Shown here in pieces: positions 5,829 to 19,145 of a stretch of DNA of 64,000 bases. Each line of letters begins with the position of its first letter. The stretch's first letter is position 1. Location of the stretch: NCBI RefSeq assembly GCF_019050325.1, contig NZ_VOMB01000005.1, positions 62,001-126,000 on the forward strand. Reading direction: 5' to 3'. The notes under the pieces are model-generated. The model made no database searches. It saw only the letters and a program-made list of their open reading frames with translations, and was not told the origin of the DNA. The position numbers were made by a program, and so were the translations under genes. The stretch is from [Mycobacterium] fortunisiensis. GTDB taxonomy: Bacteria; Actinomycetota; Actinomycetes; Mycobacteriales; Mycobacteriaceae.

Positions 5829-8361
5829 CGAAGGGCGCCATAGCCGGTCAGCCAACGACATCCGTAATGCGGCTGACCGACTCGGTGCGCGCAACCCACG
5901 CCCCCCGGCCCGGGAGAACCAACCCCCGGCGCGCGAGAACGCGCCCGCTCCCCGGGAGCCAGGCCCCCCCGGCCGGGAGAATCCGCCGTCGGGTCGCCCC
6001 CGCCGCCCGTTGCCGCCCGATGATCGGCTGACGGCGATCCTGCCGCCGGTGCGCGACGGCCGGGCCGCACCGCTGGATGTCGTCAAGGCCGCGATGGACG
6101 GCACGCCGCCGCCGAAGCCGCCGCCACCCGCGCCGCCCGCGCGTCCGCCGGGCGGTGGTGGCCGCGGATCGGGCCCGTCGGGTCCGTCCGGTTCGGGGCC
6201 CGGCGCGTCCCGGCAGTTCCGGGTCAACTGGAAGTTGGTCCGACGCGGGTCGATCGCCGCCGTGGTGGCGATGATCCTGTTGCCGATCGTGACCTTCGGT
6301 ATGGCGTACATGATCGTCGACGTTCCGCAGCCCGGTGACATCCGGACCAATCAGGTGTCGACGATCCTGGCCAGCGACGGCAGTGAGATCGCCCGGATCG
6401 TGCCGCCCGAAGGCAACCGGGTCGACGTCACCATCGATCAGATCCCCGAGCATGTCCGGGACGCGGTGATGGCCGCCGAGGACCGCGATTTCTACTCCAA
6501 TCCCGGCTTCTCGTTCACCGCGTTGCTGCGCGCGATCAAGAACAACCTGTTCGGCGGCGACCTGCAGGGCGGGTCGACCATCACCCAGCAGTACGTGAAG
6601 AACGCGCTCGTCGGTGATGAGCGCTCGGGTCTGGGCGGCTTGATCCGTAAGGCCAAAGAACTGGTCATCTCGACCAAGATGGCCGGCGAATGGTCCAAAG
6701 ACGCTGTGCTGCAGGCCTATCTGAACATGATCTATTTCGGTCGCGGTTCTTACGGCATCGCCGCGGCGGCCAAGGCCTACTTCGACAAGCCGGTCGAGGA
6801 ACTCAACGTGGCCGAGGGCGCGCTGATGGCCGCCCTGATCCAACGGCCGTCGACGCTGGACCCCGCGGTGGATCCCGACGGCGCTGCCGAACGGTGGAAC
6901 TGGGTGCTCGACGGCATGGTCGACATCGGCGCGCTGTCGGCCAAGGACCGGGCCGGGCAGGTGTTTCCGCCTACGGTGCCGCCGGACCAGGCTCGCCAGG
7001 AGAACCAGACCACCGGCCCCAACGGTCTGATCGAGCGGCAGGTCACCAAGGAACTGCTGGACCTGTTCGACATCAGCGAGCAGGCGCTCAACACCGAGGG
7101 CCTGCAGATCACCACCACGATCGACCCGCAGGCTCAGGAAGCCGCCCAGGACGCGGTGTCCAAGTACATGGACGGGCAGAACCCGGACATGCGGACCGCG
7201 GTGGTGTCGGTCGATCCGCGGGACGGCGCGGTCAAGGCGTACTACGGCGGCTCGGATGCCAACGGGTTCGACTTCGCCCAGGCGGGGTTGCCGACCGGCT
7301 CGTCGTTCAAGGTGTTCGCCCTCGTCGCGGCACTGCAACAGGGCATCGGGCTGGGTTATCAGGTGGACAGCGGTCCGGTCACCGTCAACGGCATCAAGAT
7401 CACCAACGTCGAGGGTGAAGGCTGCGGCACCTGCTCGATCGCCGAGGCCCTCAAGCGCTCCCTCAACACCAGCTACTACCGGCTGATGCTCAAGCTTGAG
7501 CACGGGCCCGAAGACGTCGCCAAGGCCGCACACGATGCCGGGGTGGCCAAGAGTTTCCCCGGGGTCGAGCACACTCTGTCCGAGGACGGCCAGGGCGGCC
7601 CCCCGAACAACGGTGTGGTGCTGGGCCAGTACCAGTCCCGGGTGATCGACATGGCCTCGGCGTACGCGACGCTGGCGGCGTCGGGCGTCTACCACAAGCC
7701 GCACTTCGTGCAGAAGGTGGTGAACTCCTCGGGCCAGGTGCTGTTCGACGCGTCGTCGCAGGACAACGGGGAGCAGCGCATCGACAAGGCCGTCGCCGAC
7801 AACGTCACCTCGGCCATGCAGCCGATCGCGGGCTGGTCGAAGGGGCACAACCTGGCCGGCGGGCGTCCGTCGGCGGCCAAGACCGGCACCAACCAACTCG
7901 GCGACACCGGCGACAACCGTGATGCCTGGATGGTCGGATACACGCCCTCGCTTTCGACGGCGGTCTGGGTGGGTACTGCTGATGGTGTGGAACCGTTGAA
8001 GACCCCGTGGGGCGGGCCGGTGTACGGCTCGGGCCTGCCGTCGGACATCTGGAAGGCCACCATGGACGGTGCGCTGAAGGGGTCCGACATCGAGAAGTTC
8101 CCCAAGCCGACGGAGATCGGTGGTTATGCCGGGGTGCCGCAGGCCCCGCCGCCCCCGGCCGCACCGGGGACCCCGGGCGGTCCGCCGATCGCGACGATGC
8201 CGTCGGAAACCGTGATTCAGCCGACGATCGAAGTGGCCCCGGGTATCACGATCCCGATCGGTCCTCCGACGACCGTGCCGATCGGACCGCCGCCGCCGGT
8301 GGCTCCTGAGCCGCCAGGCGTACCGGGCGTTCCTGAGGCGCCGGTGCTGCCGCCTCCGTGA
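5821..8361 (+). CDS. ponA1: Bifunctional penicillin-binding protein (class A PBP)
   Basis: 846 residues from GTG 5821, which overlaps the preceding stop. A cytoplasmic Pro/Arg-rich region covers residues 1-135 and one membrane segment lies around 141-165 (AAVVAMILLPIVTFGMAYMI). The GT51 transglycosylase follows with catalytic Glu in AAEDRDFYSNPG (about 219), GGSTITQQYVKN and YLNMIYFGRGSYGI. The transpeptidase domain has the Ser-x-x-Lys motif in GSSFKVF (about 493), SLNTSYYR (Ser-x-Asn) and AAKTGTNQ (Lys-Thr-Gly, about 686). A Pro-rich tail ends the protein. It polymerises and crosslinks peptidoglycan outside the membrane. In mycobacteria PonA1 acts in polar growth with RipA. It is coupled to the next gene by a GTGA overlap. 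Confidence 0.96.
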   Translation: MNNEGRHSRSANDIRNAADRLGARNPRPPARENQPPARENAPAPREPGPPGRENPPSGRPRRPLPPDDRLTAILPPVRDGRAAPLDVVKAAMDGTPPPKPPPPAPPARPPGGGGRGSGPSGPSGSGPGASRQFRVNWKLVRRGSIAAVVAMILLPIVTFGMAYMIVDVPQPGDIRTNQVSTILASDGSEIARIVPPEGNRVDVTIDQIPEHVRDAVMAAEDRDFYSNPGFSFTALLRAIKNNLFGGDLQGGSTITQQYVKNALVGDERSGLGGLIRKAKELVISTKMAGEWSKDAVLQAYLNMIYFGRGSYGIAAAAKAYFDKPVEELNVAEGALMAALIQRPSTLDPAVDPDGAAERWNWVLDGMVDIGALSAKDRAGQVFPPTVPPDQARQENQTTGPNGLIERQVTKELLDLFDISEQALNTEGLQITTTIDPQAQEAAQDAVSKYMDGQNPDMRTAVVSVDPRDGAVKAYYGGSDANGFDFAQAGLPTGSSFKVFALVAALQQGIGLGYQVDSGPVTVNGIKITNVEGEGCGTCSIAEALKRSLNTSYYRLMLKLEHGPEDVAKAAHDAGVAKSFPGVEHTLSEDGQGGPPNNGVVLGQYQSRVIDMASAYATLAASGVYHKPHFVQKVVNSSGQVLFDASSQDNGEQRIDKAVADNVTSAMQPIAGWSKGHNLAGGRPSAAKTGTNQLGDTGDNRDAWMVGYTPSLSTAVWVGTADGVEPLKTPWGGPVYGSGLPSDIWKATMDGALKGSDIEKFPKPTEIGGYAGVPQAPPPPAAPGTPGGPPIATMPSETVIQPTIEVAPGITIPIGPPTTVPIGPPPPVAPEPPGVPGVPEAPVLPPP

Positions 8362-9971
8362 CGGACCGGATTTCGCCGGCGCCCCTCGTAGAAGATCAGC
8401 GGAGCGCCGACGACCGCGACTTTCCCAGCCGCAACGACCGGCTGGCCCACGCGCTGTCGCAAACCGTCGGCGGGCCGGTCGGGCGGCACGCGTTGATCGG
8501 GCGGACCCGGTTCATGACCCCGCTGCGGGTGATGTTCCTGATCGCCGTGGTGTTCCTGGCGATGGGCTATTCGACGAAGGCCGCCTGTCTGGTGTCCTCG
8601 GGCAGCGGGACGGCCGGTCAGCGGGTGGCCAACTGGGAGAACAACCGGGCCTATTACGAGCTGTGCTATTCCGACACCGTTCCGCTCTACACCGCAGAAC
8701 TGTTGAACCAGGGCAAGTTTCCCTACAAATCCAGCTGGGTCGAGAACGACGCCACCGGCCAGCCGCGCCAGCAGTACGACGGCAGCCCGGCCATCCGCTA
8801 CATGGAGTATCCGGTGCTCACCGGGCTCTACCAGTATGTGTCGATGTCGCTGGCCAAGACCTACACCGCGGTGACCAAACTGGTGTCGGTGCCGGTGGTG
8901 GCCGAGGTGGTGATGTTCTTCAACATCTCGGCATTCGGCTTGGCCCTGGCCTGGTTGGCCACCATCTGGGCTACCTCGCGAATGGCCGGGCGACGGGTGT
9001 GGGACGCCGCGCTGGTAGCCGGCTCACCGATCGTGATCTTCCAGGTGTTCACCAACTTCGACGCGCTGGCCACGGCAGCTGCGGCCGGCGCGATGCTGGC
9101 CTGGGCCCGGCGCAAACCGGTGTGGGCCGGAGCCCTGATCGGCATCGGCGTGGCCGCCAAGCTGTACCCGCTGTTGCTGTTCGTCCCGCTGGTCCTGCTG
9201 GGGTTGCGCACCGGGCGGCTGCGTGAGGTGGGCCAGAGTCTTTTGGCCGCAGTCGTGACCTGGCTGGCGGTGAACCTGCCGATCATGGTGTTGTTCCCGC
9301 GGGGCTGGTCAGAGTTCTTCCGGCTCAACACCCGTCGCGGCGACGACATGGATTCGCTCTATAACGTGGTGAAGTCGTTCACGGACTGGCGGGGTTTCGA
9401 TCCGGATCTGGGGTTCTGGCAACCGCCGACGGTGTTGAACACGGTCACCGCGGTGTTGTTCGTGGCCTGTTGCATCGCGATCGGGTACATCGCGCTGACC
9501 GCGCCGCGGCGGCCGCGGCTGGCGCAATTGGCCTTTCTGGTGGTGGCGGCCTTCCTGCTGACCAACAAGGTGTGGAGCCCGCAGTTCTCGCTGTGGCTGG
9601 TGCCGCTGGCCGTACTGGCGCTGCCGCATCGCCGAATCCTGTTGGCGTGGATGACCATCGATGCTTTGGTGTGGGTGCCCCGCATGCTCTACCTGTACGG
9701 CGAGGCGAACAAGGGCCTGCCCGAGCAGTGGTTCACCACCACCGTGTTGCTGCGCGATATCGCGGTGATCGTGCTGTGCGCCTTGATTATTCGGCAGATC
9801 TACCGACCGGAGCTGGATCTGGTCCGCCACGGCGGGCGCATCGACGATCCCACCGGCGGAGTGTTCGACGGTGCGCCGGACAACCCCCCGCGCTGGTGGC
9901 CGGACTGGTTGCTGCCGTCGGCTGCTCGGGTGCGCGTCGAGCCGGCTGCAGACCGTGCGTTGGTGGGGTGA
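8358..9971 (+). CDS. Polytopic membrane glycosyltransferase, GT87/DUF2029-like
   Basis: 537 residues, starting at a GTG overlapping the ponA1 stop. About 10-12 membrane segments are visible, for example VMFLIAVVFLAMGYS, VVMFFNISAFGLALAWLATIW and LLLFVPLVLLGL. The N-terminal extracytoplasmic loop carries DTVPLYTAELLNQGKFPY and RYMEYPVLTGLYQ. The acidic loop residue after the first membrane helix is typical of GT-C transferases that use polyprenyl-phosphate sugars. It corresponds in position to Rv0051. The sugar and acceptor are unknown. Linkage to ponA1 suggests an envelope polymer. Confidence 0.85.
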   Translation: MTDRISPAPLVEDQRSADDRDFPSRNDRLAHALSQTVGGPVGRHALIGRTRFMTPLRVMFLIAVVFLAMGYSTKAACLVSSGSGTAGQRVANWENNRAYYELCYSDTVPLYTAELLNQGKFPYKSSWVENDATGQPRQQYDGSPAIRYMEYPVLTGLYQYVSMSLAKTYTAVTKLVSVPVVAEVVMFFNISAFGLALAWLATIWATSRMAGRRVWDAALVAGSPIVIFQVFTNFDALATAAAAGAMLAWARRKPVWAGALIGIGVAAKLYPLLLFVPLVLLGLRTGRLREVGQSLLAAVVTWLAVNLPIMVLFPRGWSEFFRLNTRRGDDMDSLYNVVKSFTDWRGFDPDLGFWQPPTVLNTVTAVLFVACCIAIGYIALTAPRRPRLAQLAFLVVAAFLLTNKVWSPQFSLWLVPLAVLALPHRRILLAWMTIDALVWVPRMLYLYGEANKGLPEQWFTTTVLLRDIAVIVLCALIIRQIYRPELDLVRHGGRIDDPTGGVFDGAPDNPPRWWPDWLLPSAARVRVEPAADRALVG

Positions 9972-14069: not shown

Positions 14070-14440
14070 TTGCTGTATCTCTGGCGAACAGGTTGCGCGA
14101 AACTCTGGACAGCGAAGCTAACCGGGTGTTTACCGAGTTGGTCCCTGCGCGCAACACAACACGCCCGGGACGGCAACCCGGCACGACACGCCGAACAACT
14201 TCCCATGCACAATTACTCACCGCCCATGTGACACCCTGACCTGGGAAAACAACAGATCGCCAGGGATTGATCCCCAGGTTCTCCCCAGGGGGTCAACACT
14301 GTGACCGACACCTATCCCCATGCCATCCACAGGTTGATCAACAGGGGTGGTTTCGGGCGGCGCCAGCAACGTCTACCGTGATGCGTCGCAGTGCCGTCAG
14401 AAGATTTGTCGGCAGCCTGTTCTACAGTTGCAGTACCTAT

Positions 14441-14456
14441 TCGAATACACGTTCGA
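14441..14456 (+). promoter_or_regulatory. LexA-like SOS box upstream of dnaB
   Basis: TCGAATACACGTTCGA matches the mycobacterial LexA box TCGAAC-N4-GTTCGA at 11 of 12 defined positions. It lies 39 bp before the dnaB GTG start. If bound, dnaB would be DNA-damage regulated through LexA. Confidence 0.6.
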
Positions 14457-14495
14457 GCCTGTCGTGGGGCGGTCTCGGAAGGGGGTGGGGAGTCC

Positions 14496-15881
14496 GTGGC
14501 GGTGGTGGACGACCTGGGGCATCCGGATGCCGAGATGGATGGCCCTCCGCCTGGAGAGGATTTCGGTAGGCAGCCGCCGCAGGACATGGCGGCCGAGCAA
14601 GCTGTGCTGGGCGGCATGCTGCTGAGCAAGGACGCGATCGCCGACGTGCTGGAGCGGCTGCGTCCCGGCGACTTCTACCGCCCGGCCCACCAGAACGTCT
14701 ACGACGCGATCCTCGACCTCTACGGCCGCGGCGAACCGGCCGACGCCGTCACCGTGGCCGCCGAGCTCGACCGCCGCGGGCTGCTGCGTCGTATCGGCGG
14801 CGCGCCGTATCTCCACACGTTGATCTCCACCGTGCCGACGGCGGCCAACGCCGGTTTCTACGCCGCCATCGTGGCCGACAAGGCACTGCTGCGCCGGCTC
14901 GTGGAGGCGGGCACCCGAGTGGTCCAGTACGGCTACGCCGGGGCCGACGGTGCCGACGTCACCGATGTGGTGGACCGGGCGCAGGCCGAGATCTACGACG
15001 TCACCGAGCGCCGCGCCTCGGAGGACTTCGTCCCGCTCGAAGACCTGCTGCAGCCCACGATGGACGAGATCGACGCGATCGCGTCGCAGGGCGGCATCTC
15101 ACGCGGTGTGCCCACCGGGTTCACCGAGCTCGACGAGATCACCAACGGCCTGCACGCCGGGCAGATGATCATCATCGCGGCGCGGCCTGGTGTCGGCAAA
15201 AGCACACTGGGACTTGACTTTATGCGGTCCTGCTCCATCAAGCACCGGATGGCCAGCGTCATCTTCTCGCTGGAAATGAGCAAATCCGAGATCGTCATGC
15301 GGTTGCTCTCGGCCGAGGCGAAAATCAAACTGGGAGACATGCGTTCGGGTCGCATGAGCGATGACGACTGGACCAAGCTGGCGCGGCGGATGAGCGAGAT
15401 CAGCGAGGCGCCGCTCTACATCGACGACTCACCGAACCTGACCATGATGGAGATCCGGGCCAAGGGACGTCGGCTCGCCCAAAAAGCGGATTTGAAGCTC
15501 GTGGTCGTCGATTACATGCAGCTGATGAGTTCGGGCAAGAAATATGAATCACGGCAGCAAGAAGTTTCGGATTTTTCGCGTAGCCTCAAATTGATGGCAA
15601 AAGAATTAAATGTTCCAGTAGTTGCAATTAGTCAACTTAACCGTGGGCCGGAGCAACGGACCGATAAGCGTCCGCAGGTCTCTGACCTGCGTGAGTCGGG
15701 CTCGCTCGAGCAGGATGCGGATATGGTGATGCTATTACACCGCCCCGACGCAATTGATCGTGAAGACCCACGTGGTGGTGAAGCGGACATTATTCTCGGT
15801 AAACACCGAAATGGCCCGACAGCGAATATCACGGTGGCGCACCAATTGCATTTCTCGCGATTTACCAATATGGCGCGATAG
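14496..15881 (+). CDS. dnaB: Replicative DNA helicase DnaB (intein-free)
   Basis: 461 residues from GTG 14496. This start leaves a usual mycobacterial N-terminus ending PPQDMAAEQAVLGGMLLS. The N-terminal domain is followed by a RecA-type helicase: Walker A ARPGVGKSTLGLDF (about 228-241), FSLEMSKSEIVMRLL, Walker B LKLVVVDYMQLM (about 335), AISQLNRGPEQR and LRESGSLEQDADMVMLLHRP, ending LHFSRF. It unwinds DNA ahead of the fork as a hexamer. Many mycobacterial DnaB proteins carry inteins at the P-loop or the later H4 motif; here both sites are uninterrupted. From about 15480 codon use changes sharply (AAA, TTA, GAA, ATT); the lines 15541-15660 count only 51 G+C of 120 bases, in a gene otherwise GC-rich. 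Confidence 0.96.
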   Translation: MAVVDDLGHPDAEMDGPPPGEDFGRQPPQDMAAEQAVLGGMLLSKDAIADVLERLRPGDFYRPAHQNVYDAILDLYGRGEPADAVTVAAELDRRGLLRRIGGAPYLHTLISTVPTAANAGFYAAIVADKALLRRLVEAGTRVVQYGYAGADGADVTDVVDRAQAEIYDVTERRASEDFVPLEDLLQPTMDEIDAIASQGGISRGVPTGFTELDEITNGLHAGQMIIIAARPGVGKSTLGLDFMRSCSIKHRMASVIFSLEMSKSEIVMRLLSAEAKIKLGDMRSGRMSDDDWTKLARRMSEISEAPLYIDDSPNLTMMEIRAKGRRLAQKADLKLVVVDYMQLMSSGKKYESRQQEVSDFSRSLKLMAKELNVPVVAISQLNRGPEQRTDKRPQVSDLRESGSLEQDADMVMLLHRPDAIDREDPRGGEADIILGKHRNGPTANITVAHQLHFSRFTNMAR

Positions 15882-15965
15882 AACGACGACCCCGATACGC
15901 ACTTACTGGAAGTTGTAACTGCAAATAGAAGCAATGGGCGTGCGTCCGCTCTCCCCAGTCTTCTC

Positions 15966-16053
15966 GTGGTAGCAGTAGGCATCCTAAGCCGTTTAGCCGC
16001 AGGCAATTTCGACGATCGGAGGTGTCAGTCCTCAGCAGTATCGTCGGGCCATG
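15966..16053 (+). pseudogene. Decayed AraC-family HTH C-terminus
   Basis: Reading across three frames gives VVAVG, then PKPFSRRQFRRSEV, then GVSPQQYRRAM. Together they follow the AraC/XylS second-helix consensus (A-x-x-VG-F-x-DP-x-x-FSR-x-FRR-x-x-GVSP-x-x-YRR). The pieces are offset by frameshifts, so no protein can be made from it. The last piece runs in frame into the start of the intein-like gene. It appears to be the remnant of a regulator whose upstream part is absent. Confidence 0.45.
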
Positions 16054-17415
16054 ACAGCAACCGAAGATGTAGGCGGCTTTCTCTCGGCCGCTGAAGTCAG
16101 TGACGCACTGGCCAAACCTCCTGGTGTGACAGACTCAACGCAGCTGCGTGTTCTGCGTGCCGACAACGGTTTTGACACCCCGCTTGCTCGTCTGGCATCT
16201 CACTCAGGCAGGCCCGTGCTGCTGTGGTCGGTAGATTCCCACCTGCGTCTCACACAACGACCGTTGACGATTCAGATCTCTGTAGGCGAGCGGGACGTGT
16301 ACTCCCTGAGGCTTGCTTCCGGGCGGTGTCTGGAATTGGCGTCGAACCACAGCGTGCGCAAACTGGAGGGCTGGACGTCTGTTCCCGAGTTGGACGTCGG
16401 CAGTCGAGTCGCTGTAGTACGCCGGGTAGATGAGCCAGTGCAGACCGACCGCATGCACAACCAAGAGTTGATCATGCTGGCGCACATGATCGGTGACGGA
16501 TCCTGCGTCCGGCGCCAACCGGTCCGCTACGCCTCGATTGACGAGGCAAATCTTGACGCTGTGACCACCGCGGCTTTGCACTTCGGGGTTACCGCGATCC
16601 GTGACGAGTATGCCGCAGCGCGTGTGACGACGCTGCGCCTCCCCGCGCCGTACCGTCTGACGCATGGCAAACGCAACCCTATCGCCGAATGGCTGGACGG
16701 CCTAGGCCTGTTTGGCTTGCGGAGCTATGAGAAGTTCGTTCCAGCAAAGGTTTTCGCGGCCCCTAACGACCAGGTGGCGCTATTCCTGCGCCATCTGTGG
16801 GCGACCGATGGATCTGTCCGATGGGATGCGAAGACAGCGCAGGGCAGGGTCTACTACGCGTCGACGAGCCGACGGTTGATCGACGACGTGATGCAACTTC
16901 TTCTGCGAATGGGCGTACAGGGCAGAATCACTGAGACCCAGAAAGCGAGCTACCGCGCTTGCTGGCATCTCACCATCGACCGCGGCGAGAACCAATTGGC
17001 GTTCCTCACGGATGTCGGCGTGCATGGTGAGCGCGGAATCAAGGCCCAGGAGGTTGTTGCGCGTCTTGCTGGACGCGATCGCCGTCCGGGCACTGACACG
17101 ATTCCTATTCAGATCTGGGAGCATGTCAAAGCGTTGATGGTCGAGCGCAACTGGTCTGCGATGGATTTTGCCCTCGCGACCAACACCAGGTTCGACGGTC
17201 CGCTGATGTGGACGCACGCGCCAGGTCGCGCACGGATGCAACGCATTGCCAACGTTTTCGGCGATCCACTGTTGCACGACCTCGCCACCAACGACATTGT
17301 CTGGGACAAGGTGGTCAGTCTCGAACACGTGGGTTACCAGGAACGCGTCGATTTCGGTCGCGGGGTCGCCGGCCCATTAGTCGTTGGCGGTTTACTGGTC
17401 GAGCCACAGAGCTAG
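16051..17415 (+). CDS. Stand-alone intein-like LAGLIDADG homing endonuclease
   Basis: 454 residues. The sequence reads along its whole length like an actinobacterial DnaB intein without exteins. The Hint N-part is LRVLRADNGFD, PVLLWSVDSHLRLTQRP, VYSLRLASGRCLELASNHSV and GWTSVPELDVGSRVAV. The endonuclease core has two LAGLIDADG helices, MLAHMIGDGSCV (about 142-153) and FLRHLWATDGSVRW (about 245-258), each keeping its acidic residue. The C-part is DIVWDKVVSLEHVGYQERVDF, then GPLVVGGLLVEPQS. The splicing residues are gone: no Cys or Ser before the first strand, and the terminal His-Asn plus nucleophile is replaced by EPQ. It may still cut DNA but should not splice. No good ribosome-binding site precedes ATG 16051. 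Confidence 0.85.
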   Translation: MTATEDVGGFLSAAEVSDALAKPPGVTDSTQLRVLRADNGFDTPLARLASHSGRPVLLWSVDSHLRLTQRPLTIQISVGERDVYSLRLASGRCLELASNHSVRKLEGWTSVPELDVGSRVAVVRRVDEPVQTDRMHNQELIMLAHMIGDGSCVRRQPVRYASIDEANLDAVTTAALHFGVTAIRDEYAAARVTTLRLPAPYRLTHGKRNPIAEWLDGLGLFGLRSYEKFVPAKVFAAPNDQVALFLRHLWATDGSVRWDAKTAQGRVYYASTSRRLIDDVMQLLLRMGVQGRITETQKASYRACWHLTIDRGENQLAFLTDVGVHGERGIKAQEVVARLAGRDRRPGTDTIPIQIWEHVKALMVERNWSAMDFALATNTRFDGPLMWTHAPGRARMQRIANVFGDPLLHDLATNDIVWDKVVSLEHVGYQERVDFGRGVAGPLVVGGLLVEPQS

Positions 17416-17694
17416 CGGCCACTCAGCCTAGGTAAATGTGATGCCTGACCGGGGTGCCGAAGCATTGTTTCGCCCGCCGCCGAGCACCTCTGCGGTAGCT
17501 CACCAGCTCCACTTCTCGAGATTCGCGACGTGATCGGGTGTTATCGGCGAGATCAGCAGCAAAAATCCTCGCTCGCTTTTCTTCCCACGCCGCCGCCAGC
17601 AACTGCAGGATCTCAACCCGGCTCTGGCGACACGGATCAGTTGTCGGGGGCCGGGGGCATGCTTGGTCGCAACCACAGCAGAAAGGTGCGGCTG

Positions 17695-18159
17695 ATGTGC
17701 TGGCAGTGCGAGAACCCAAATGCCCCCATCGAGGATTATCTGGATGAACTGAGGGGCATGATCGAGGACCACGGCTGGGCGGTGCAGTTCGTCGAAAGCG
17801 AGAACCGCCCGTTCGCATACACGGTCGGATTACATGACCGCGGCCTCCCGGAACTGTTGATCACCGGCTTGCCGCCTGACGTCTCCACCCGTGTGTTGAA
17901 TTCCCTCGCGCACATGATCGTCGACGACGGCATAGTCCTGGGGCCGGCCATGCACATCGATTACCAAGACCGGTTCCTCATCGAGGTTGTCGAGGTCGAG
18001 AATCCCGACGTGCATCTGAAGTTCGCGATCGGGCTTTTCGGCCCTCAGGTTCGGGCCCTCCAACTGGTGTGGGCCGACGACCGTGGCCGCTGGCCTTGGG
18101 ATTTCGACTGGGATAATGGTCGCCGTTGGCAAGCGGTGCTGGGCATCCGATCTACATGA
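17695..18159 (+). CDS. DUF4262 domain protein
   Basis: 154 residues from ATG 17695. A longer frame begins at 17530, but its extra 55 residues are low-complexity. The protein starts CWQCENPNAPIEDYLDELRG and shows the DUF4262 signature FAYTVGLHDRGLPELLITGLP, then VLNSLAHMIVD and LQLVWADDRGRWPWDFDWD. Function of the family is unknown. It is about 280 bp downstream of the intein-like gene and in the same orientation. Confidence 0.82.
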   Translation: MCWQCENPNAPIEDYLDELRGMIEDHGWAVQFVESENRPFAYTVGLHDRGLPELLITGLPPDVSTRVLNSLAHMIVDDGIVLGPAMHIDYQDRFLIEVVEVENPDVHLKFAIGLFGPQVRALQLVWADDRGRWPWDFDWDNGRRWQAVLGIRST

Positions 18160-18276
18160 ATGGATTGTAGGGCTTGATCTTTGATCGACGCGCCGAAGGT
18201 ATGACACAAAAAATCGGGTCGATACGGACAGAGCTCAACGGTGAGCTTCGGGTAGATCTCGATAGGGTGAGATCTC

Positions 18277-18747
18277 ATGTCTCAGCGCCATGAAGCCGCC
18301 GCTCCGTCCAACCCAGTCCCGACAACGGCCGCCTTGATCGGTGCGTGGCGGACCGAGGGCGAGGTCTTCGGCGAGGATGGTCGAAGCGTGGCGGCCACGG
18401 TGGTCGGAAGCGACGTATACGAGGAGCTCGGGCCGACTGTCGTGCACCACGTCGATGTGGAGATCGGCGGCGAACGCACACGTGCTCTGGAGATCTTCGA
18501 GCCCTACGACGCCGAGCTCGGCGGCTTTCCGACGAGATCCTATGACGACCGCGGTGGCGTCGAGACCTCGACTGCTGTCGTGCAGGACGGCTTGTGGACC
18601 TTCCACGCCGGCCCCGCCAGCGCGACGCTCGAGGTGGCTGAAGACGGTCGATCGATGCATGCGCGCTGGGAGGTGACCGACGCAGAGGGCCGCCGGCGGA
18701 CCTGGATGGAATTGCGGTTCACCCGCCAGCAGGTAACGGACGTTTAG
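18277..18747 (+). CDS. Conserved hypothetical protein, lipocalin-like
   Basis: 156 residues from ATG 18277, preceded by GATAGGGTGAGATCTC. The sequence is a series of short beta-strand-like segments: LIGAWRTEGEVF, YEELGPTVVHHVDVEIGG, LEIFEPYDAELGGFPTRSYDDRGG, LWTFHAGPASATLEVAEDGRSM and WMELRFTRQQ. This pattern resembles small beta-barrel proteins of the DUF1579/lipocalin-like kind. No catalytic motif was recognised. It ends four bases inside the end of the opposite-strand truncated gene. Confidence 0.7.
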   Translation: MSQRHEAAAPSNPVPTTAALIGAWRTEGEVFGEDGRSVAATVVGSDVYEELGPTVVHHVDVEIGGERTRALEIFEPYDAELGGFPTRSYDDRGGVETSTAVVQDGLWTFHAGPASATLEVAEDGRSMHARWEVTDAEGRRRTWMELRFTRQQVTDV

Positions 18748-19145
18748 GCGCTTGATCGTCCGCTCGCGGATCGACTGCCAGGTCGGCGGCGCCGGCGGGC
18801 ATGGTCAGCGCTCGGGATGCCACCCGCGGCGAGGTTCGGCCCGGTGAACTGCTGACCGGACAACCCGGCCTCGACAGTGGGGTTCACCCGATCCGATTCG
18901 GCCAGCAGCCCCTCGGCCGAATCCTGTTGTCGTTCAGTGAGGTGTCGAGCTGTCCACTTTTCGCCGCCCACGCCGTCGAGGCGGCCGGACGCTGCATCGG
19001 CCGCTCCACCGACCAGGTGCGCCAGCAGATCGTGCACGGTCCATCCGGGTGTCGCTGGGACCGGTGTCGTCAGCTGAGATTCGCCAAGACCGGCCGCGAC
19101 GGCGACGATGAGCAAGCGCGCGCCCCGATATGACTTGTCAAGCAT
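18744..19145 (-). pseudogene. Truncated maleylpyruvate isomerase/DinB-like protein
   Basis: A 133-codon frame from ATG 19145. The first ~107 residues follow the mycothiol-dependent maleylpyruvate isomerase family N-terminus: TTPVPATPGWTVHDLLAHLVGG, then ERQQDSAEGLLAESD and LSGQQFTGPNLAAGG. At that point the family normally continues with a His-containing helix (HEHDLRGAL-like) and another 100 residues. Here it turns into a short Arg-rich tail and stops. It overlaps the FAD monooxygenase stop by eight bases. A 3' deletion or frameshift is likely. Confidence 0.6.

Follow-up and report, generated by a model that had tools for sequence, protein, structure and literature searches.

Results

A free-standing DnaB-intein gene behind an intact dnaB

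The window analysed here is a 64,000-nucleotide stretch of [Mycobacterium] fortunisiensis DNA (contig NZ_VOMB01000005.1, positions 62,001 to 126,000) in which dnaB, the gene for the replicative helicase, is followed on the same strand by a free-standing gene for an intein-derived LAGLIDADG endonuclease (Table 1). A preliminary description of the locus had taken the second gene for a separate one after an intein-less dnaB, aligning with actinobacterial DnaB inteins from the N-terminal to the C-terminal Hint strand, and both points were borne out. The dnaB open reading frame (ORF) is uninterrupted and the endonuclease ORF begins 169 nt after its stop, not in frame inside a host protein as an intein would be. 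Profile searches aligned ORF residues 31-434 with positions 402-808 of NCBIfam PRK07773, a model of intein-bearing mycobacterial dnaB (E 2e-128), while the best stretch of the neighbouring DnaB corresponds to model positions 2-399; because the two proteins match separate stretches, the ORF represents the intein part of the model. Pfam assigned LAGLIDADG_3 (PF14528, E 1.5e-24), with Intein_splicing below its cut-off, and the ORF aligns over its full length with the DnaB intein of the H4-motif site, which is insertion site a (PMC6195587). By dnaB and neighbouring genes the genome is close to M. senegalense, whose dnaB has an embedded intein at this same site (L055/L113).

Table 1. Features at the dnaB locus, in window coordinates
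Feature	Position	Strand	Remarks
dnaB	14391..15881	+	Intact; both known intein sites are empty; predicted to be host gene and target
Divergent 3′ tract of dnaB, spanning the intein site and the part after it	15551..15881	+	Synonymously divergent; third-position identity 0.44-0.48, against 0.75-0.76 upstream
H4 intein insertion junction, DLRESG/SLEQD	15701..15702	+	Predicted cut region, empty in the window; residues 401/402 (from ORF residue 37), placed by intein-bearing relatives
Variable stretch containing the element	15885..19040		In relatives L101 and L108, missing between dnaB and the next sequence in common
Predicted PafBC/DNA-damage promoter, GTGTCAGTC-N8-TATCGT	16022..16044	+	Two mismatches; leaderless, with 6 nt from the -10 to the ATG
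Free-standing intein-derived LAGLIDADG endonuclease gene	16051..17415	+	454 amino acids, ATG to TAG
Degenerate Hint N-terminal half, residues 31-127	16141..16431	+	Lacks Cys1 and the block B Thr (now Ala97); the window copy retains His100
Asp149, first LAGLIDADG catalytic acid, in HMIGDGS	16495..16497	+	Preceded by helix 137-148
Asp253, second LAGLIDADG catalytic acid, in WATDGSV	16807..16809	+	Helix 239-253
Degenerate Hint C-terminal half, residues 406-452	17266..17406	+	Terminal His-Asn lost
Fossil of dnaB 3′ end, PSTSAVAHQLHFSRFA aligned with dnaB TANITVAHQLHFSRFT	17480..17527	+	Directly behind the endonuclease gene; tblastn E 0.002, profile E 0.009

Constraint on the splicing and cutting halves

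The window protein has neither the N-terminal Cys or Ser nor the C-terminal Asn plus nucleophile of a splicing intein: Cys1 is gone, and a His-Asn-nucleophile near the C-terminal end was found in 0 of the 37 rows of its clade (clade 1, below). A split, trans-splicing intein was rejected on the absence of both end nucleophiles; no search was aimed at a partner gene. The two LAGLIDADG acids, Asp149 and Asp253, are invariant in all 52 free-standing rows (38/38 first labelled clade 1, one of which, P0100, groups with a Nocardia type in the tree, and 14/14 other free rows, among them the broken L042) as well as in 75/75 embedded inteins. The preliminary description had likewise read the acids as kept and the nucleophiles as lost. 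The block B His, by contrast, is kept in only 7/38 and 1/14 of the same free rows (8/52), while this His and the block B Thr are both invariant in the 75 embedded rows. Mean divergence of the Hint N-terminal half relative to the endonuclease is 2.55 in the 37 clade-1 rows, 1.76 in other free rows and 0.67 in embedded ones. Among the eight intact clade-1 genes, the median pairwise ratio of nonsynonymous to synonymous substitution (dN/dS; medians over the 14-20 of 28 pairs with unsaturated synonymous sites) is 0.07 for the endonuclease, 0.04 for the core, 0.10 for residues 346-420, 0.25 for the Hint N-terminal half and 0.42 for the C-terminal end. These values argue firmly for purifying selection on the endonuclease half and, read together with the alignments, indicate that constraint is reversed after escape from dnaB, residues for cutting being held and those for splicing lost. 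An AlphaFold model built on a 39-row alignment (mean predicted local distance difference test score 86.3, predicted template modelling score 0.86) retains the endonuclease fold: it shows the two helices of a LAGLIDADG homing endonuclease, each with its catalytic acid, and residues 30-452 match intein-plus-endonuclease structures in the PDB.

The ORF might instead be an inert, slowly decaying intein remnant or a product of misassembly. Lost splicing residues would suit a remnant, as would the visibly broken relatives (L042, L057 and L090-L094), but the low endonuclease dN/dS, the unbroken conservation of the acids, the promoter spacing conserved among clade-1 loci (below) and the same arrangement in independently sequenced species make this explanation very improbable. 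Because independently sequenced species share the arrangement, the frameshift or assembly error that the preliminary description had itself raised is excluded.

Distribution and escape from dnaB

A protein search scored 7997 candidates and gave 1190 matches. Among the best 120 of these, and leaving the window's own aside, rows 1-35 lack a DnaB domain (62-75% identity), the first DnaB-bearing match is row 36 (61%), and later rows mix both kinds; the named organisms among the matches listed are mostly mycobacteria. Matches occur in 117 of the 396 genomes of the genus. Intact clade-1 free genes are found in eight (G000, G312, G549, G582, G405, G725, G285, G177), degraded ones in four (G453, G719, G548, G638), free genes of other groups in nine (eight intact; that of G362, L042, has an internal stop) and an embedded intein in 98, with G719 and G548 counted in two classes. 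Six of the eight intact clade-1 genes immediately follow dnaB, all in its orientation except the one in L033, which runs the other way; 18 near-relative loci are without the gene. This patchiness bears on the proposal that the protein has been domesticated, as a damage-induced nuclease or a WhiA-like DNA-binding regulator that serves its host and no longer moves. A damage-responsive promoter is predicted here too (below), but with eight intact and four degraded clade-1 copies among 396 genomes, both catalytic acids invariant and a tract recently shared between species (below), we consider domestication improbable.

Two genomes combine both states. In G719 (L092, L093), which has an H4-site dnaB intein, broken remains of the free gene with a dnaB 3′ fragment directly follow dnaB, and free-gene remains recur some 15 kb away; in G548 (L094, L095) an H4-site intein and a broken free gene lie about 28 kb apart on one contig. 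The free gene may fall into decay after an intein has filled the site. Elsewhere, in L041 (G284; assembly 7% contaminated), the free gene and a dnaB that bears an intein run in opposite directions, and in L034 a second endonuclease C-terminal remnant (6992-7188) follows the intact free gene in a tandem-cluster-like arrangement. Carriage by phages or plasmids was considered and rejected: identity is at most 27.1% in the best 10 of 11 matched phage records, and among plasmids a 2.66-Mb Nocardia farcinica record reaches 57% with no annotated feature beneath, the other four staying at or below 26.4%.

A quick maximum-likelihood tree, built on 127 rows, nests the 37 clade-1 rows within embedded H4-site inteins with a Shimodaira-Hasegawa-like approximate likelihood ratio test (SH-aLRT) value of 100. 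Three further free groups stand elsewhere, two mycobacterial (SH-aLRT 100 and 99) and one of Nocardia type (91, drawn open). Monophyly of all 52 free rows is rejected by the approximately unbiased test (p-AU 0.0002), which argues that escape happened more than once; the best tree implies four escapes. Tree and profiles together point firmly to descent from a DnaB H4-site intein, and, with fold and reversed constraint, agree on the conversion of an intein into a free endonuclease that had first been proposed.

A hint of how escape occurred comes from five loci (L039, L043, L085, L086, L087) in which the dnaB stop is followed by two codons and then by an ATG or GTG one codon before the Cys1 position, now Ser, Ala or Pro. 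The arrangement looks as if a copy of the C-extein had been inserted at the junction of N-extein and intein. In these loci the free gene is in the dnaB frame, begins 6 nt after the dnaB stop and has no detectable promoter motif; it is probably translated by re-initiation after dnaB. The free frame of L036 still spans DLRKSG-Cys, the N-extein end, and terminates near VHNP. In L044 (G194) an intact intein-less dnaB end (338-514) is followed 7.4 kb on by a second full C-extein joined to the C-terminal half of an intein (7920-8864).

A predicted DNA-damage promoter

Mycobacterial DNA-damage promoters are described by the motif tTGTCRgtg-8nt-TAnnnT (PMC5656591). This motif precedes the gene in 12/12 clade-1 loci that retain the gene start, namely the eight intact ones and the broken L090, L091, L057 and L092; the fragments in L093 and L094 fall outside the count because their gene start is missing. 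The distance from the -10 element to the ATG or GTG is 6 nt in all 12, and this codon shares the reading frame of the gene in 11 of them, the exception being the broken L092. Eight loci have one mismatch to the motif, three have two (window, L082, L092) and L091 has three. With up to two mismatches, the motif is expected in 2.25% of 330-nt random sequences from these loci, and was found within 400 nt behind dnaB in 1 of 18 loci without the gene. At the same threshold it occurs in 0 of 14 fetched loci of the other free groups, five of which instead start 6 nt after the dnaB stop. We predict that PafBC drives the clade-1 gene.

A foreign dnaB 3′ end and a shared tract

Compared with nine near relatives that lack the gene, the window's dnaB has a third-position identity of 0.75-0.76 upstream, but 0.44 immediately ahead of the H4 site and 0.48 after it; among the relatives themselves the values are 0.77-0.78, then 0.66 and 0.70. 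The DnaB protein in the divergent tract is 98-100% identical to that of the relatives, so that, at synonymous sites, the window's dnaB 3′ end is clearly foreign by this comparison. Its strict homing donor was not found among the fetched loci.

A second case is provided by two other carriers, L080 (M. sp. IS-1590) and L081 (M. novocastrense). Their dnaB genes differ by 6.6% before the site and 1.1% behind it (2/177), and their free genes by 1.1% in the first two thirds, then 7.7% and, at the end, 24%. At third positions dnaB has 28/210 and 39/168 mismatches before the site and 2/60 behind, and the free gene 3/307 and then 37/140. Within dnaB, residue 395 is the change point (permutation p 0.01), with a range of 7544-7676 that takes in the site at 7628. 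The comparison points firmly to a recently shared tract that would begin near the old intein site.

Fossils of the dnaB 3′ end

The free gene stands behind dnaB, and in part of the carriers it is itself followed by a fossil of the dnaB 3′ end. Profile searches over 28 carrier loci detected seven such traces, of which five had E<0.01, and none in 18 loci without the gene. All seven (L091, L092, window, L033, L042, L081, L088) adjoin the gene's 3′ side; in L091 and L092 the gene is abutted by 48 C-extein codons, and the other five have shorter traces. That fossils are nearer to relatives than to the carrier's own dnaB end was rejected as a general rule: the window is only suggestive (0.56 to its own, mean 0.62 to 15 relatives), as is L091 (0.896 own, 0.931 to L092), and neither L092, whose own dnaB end fits best, nor L042 shows it.

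The predicted target site

An exclusivity count of the free gene against an intein at the site gave 98/389 (P 0.006, kinship ignored). Among genomes whose site fits the searched pattern, and again ignoring kinship, the rare-codon form TTA-GCT occurs in 7/10 with the free gene, 0/31 with an intein and 16/75 others. AGY serine codons account for 14/33 in 11 loci and 17/37 in 15 loci of carriers, broken copies included, for 32/220 in 73 loci that lack the gene and for 12/83 in 29 intein-bearing loci, in counts that ignore kinship and drop the 4 of 77 loci without the gene that gave no site. We infer that the enzyme would cut intein-less dnaB, because the tract starts near the intein site, the carriers' site is intein-free and recoded sites are commoner in carriers. 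The further suggestion in the preliminary description, that intein-bearing alleles might be cut as well, found no support; an intein at the site would interrupt the target.

Surroundings of the element

The 3.1-kb stretch after dnaB is missing from relatives L101 and L108, and its place in the other relatives is taken by different DNA. Within the stretch, a DUF4262 gene (17530-18159) follows the element; genes like it also occur close to the element in L081 and L085. Two further weak intein-like matches fall in long open frames of the same genome (G000:C1:20255-21070, L002, and G000:C21:387058-387477, L003).

Discussion

Our preferred reading, which we hold to be probable, is that the gene is a freed H4-site DnaB intein under purifying selection, with a predicted damage promoter of its own, that homes by cutting intein-less dnaB and copying in a replacement 3′ end together with itself. 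The former intein is now a separate gene after an intact dnaB; its splicing residues are lost and its endonuclease is kept. DNA damage would switch the gene on through its promoter; the enzyme would cut an intein-less dnaB near the old intein site, and repair would copy in a new dnaB 3′ end along with the gene. The copied end may protect the carrier from further cutting, and the fossil may serve, or have served, as the right-hand homology arm.

Several observations weigh against this reading. The window's own site is not visibly recoded (GC content at third positions, GC3, 0.79; no AGY serine); the site itself is ordinary and its flank is low in GC3 (0.41). The recoded form seen in 16/75 genomes occurs where there is neither gene nor intein, recoding and exclusivity counts are uncorrected for kinship, and genome classes derive from open-frame length and fetched context, the 98 intein-bearing genomes not having been inspected one by one. 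The gene of L034 and that of L035 are 4-5 kb distant from dnaB, and in L033 (G312) the gene is oriented opposite to dnaB, whose 3′ end is not clearly foreign. L098, one of the nine near relatives without the gene, has part of the window's divergent tract (0.90 identity, 15579-15638), and L178 and L179, also without the gene, have the same 3′ end as L080. For L080 and L081 the best left edge over the whole stretch is 8080, inside the gene, with a range (7610-8115) that barely takes in the site (7628), and 6 of the 133 positions of the spacer differ (4.5%). Two of the seven fossil traces are weak (E 0.14 and 0.42).

A rival reading is plain inteinless homing of the kind known from SegF of phage T4, in which the enzyme would cut the neighbouring dnaB, the gene would move by co-conversion of flanks, and the fossil would be a scar of the original escape with no later role. 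For it speak the position of the gene next to its presumed target, the shared tract and, counting also against the preferred reading, the 21 of 28 carrier loci in which no trace was detected and four clade-1 fossils that look old: they have a non-dnaB extension in common, as if inherited with the element instead of newly displaced by every homing event. On the other side, the window's dnaB 3′ end has been replaced, or else recoded, around the site, and the 48-codon fragments that abut the gene in L091 and L092 are what an arrangement of the yeast WHO type predicts. We therefore rate SegF-type homing as an appreciable but distinctly weaker alternative to homing with replacement of the dnaB 3′ end.

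We see evenly balanced chances for a broader proposal: that bacteria evolved WHO-type elements of their own several times, a C-extein copy pasted before the intein restoring dnaB and freeing the endonuclease, which would then spread by cutting dnaB and swapping its 3′ end, in clade 1 when triggered by damage. In that case mycobacteria would house a selfish gene that remodels the 3′ end of their replicative helicase gene over and over, under an expression control coupled to DNA damage, a time at which recombination is active. A separate bacterial case of this kind would show, in a directly testable way, how an intein becomes a free homing gene, with the stages side by side: an embedded intein, a freed gene starting at the old intein junction, a constrained free gene and a decayed copy. 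Constraint reverses cleanly between the half for splicing and the half for cutting, which makes a natural experiment on intein function. The preliminary description had contained neither the promoter nor the 3′ fossil, nor the replaced dnaB 3′ end, nor the wider family. New here are the clade-1 promoter motif, the dnaB 3′ traces, the foreign dnaB 3′ end in the window and the shared tract in two other carriers; judged by title and abstract among the matches listed, no paper on free-standing DnaB-intein endonucleases was found in the open-access literature.

Known systems resemble the element in different respects. With the DnaB H4-site (site a) inteins DnaBi2 of M. smegmatis and DnaBi of M. tuberculosis, as described in PMC6195587, it has in common full-length sequence, fold, catalytic acids and host gene; unlike them it is a separate gene without Cys1 or a terminal His-Asn, from a family with degenerate block B, and cannot splice itself out of any protein. 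The Arth_1007 intein of Arthrobacter FB24 likewise is DnaB-like, lies outside dnaB and has lost its block B His, but it is a class 3 intein described as an inactive pseudogene still between short exteins, and the abstract mentions no free, constrained family (PMC3196547). The free-standing genes of phage T4 that undergo intronless homing also adjoin the gene they target; they differ in encoding GIY-YIG or HNH enzymes where the window protein is LAGLIDADG, in lacking intein ancestry and, for seven of them, in being described as promoter-less, and the passages drawn on here describe no host-gene 3′ fragment (PMC2988022).

The closest parallel is offered by the WHO elements of the yeasts Torulaspora and Lachancea, along with the HO endonuclease. 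For WHO, in the account drawn on here (PMC7282813), the gene is flanked on one side by an FBA1 that is chimeric and resistant and on the other by a 3′ fragment that was displaced, cutting is allele-specific, and two FBA1 alleles are 99% identical before the cut and 85% behind it. In both systems a LAGLIDADG gene that derives from an intein but is free of exteins stands behind an intact host gene and has its own transcription (predicted in the mycobacterial gene); both also have broken copies, host-gene 3′ fragments behind the gene and, in the mycobacteria at some loci, a chimeric host gene with a foreign 3′ end (PMC7282813). The position behind the host gene holds in clade 1 with the exceptions of the two distant intact copies and the inverted one; the 3′ fragment is present in a quarter of the carrier loci (7/28) and weak in the window by its profile score; the replaced 3′ end is clear in the window and in the L080/L081 tract and not in L033; and recoded, potentially resistant sites are enriched in carriers without being visible at the window's own site. 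WHO differs in being a yeast element with FBA1 as host, descended from the yeast VMA intein and bearing a zinc finger, where the mycobacterial gene is bacterial, associated with dnaB and derived from H4-site DnaB inteins; the latter also has a predicted DNA-damage promoter, and its cleavage is predicted where that of WHO is known (PMC7282813). Pfam returned only LAGLIDADG_3 and Intein_splicing for the window protein, with no C-terminal zinc finger, and tree and profiles lead to DnaB inteins and not to VMA. Because the zinc finger is missing and the intein is a different one, the element would be like WHO in its working and not by descent; the two arose separately, from different inteins and at different genes.
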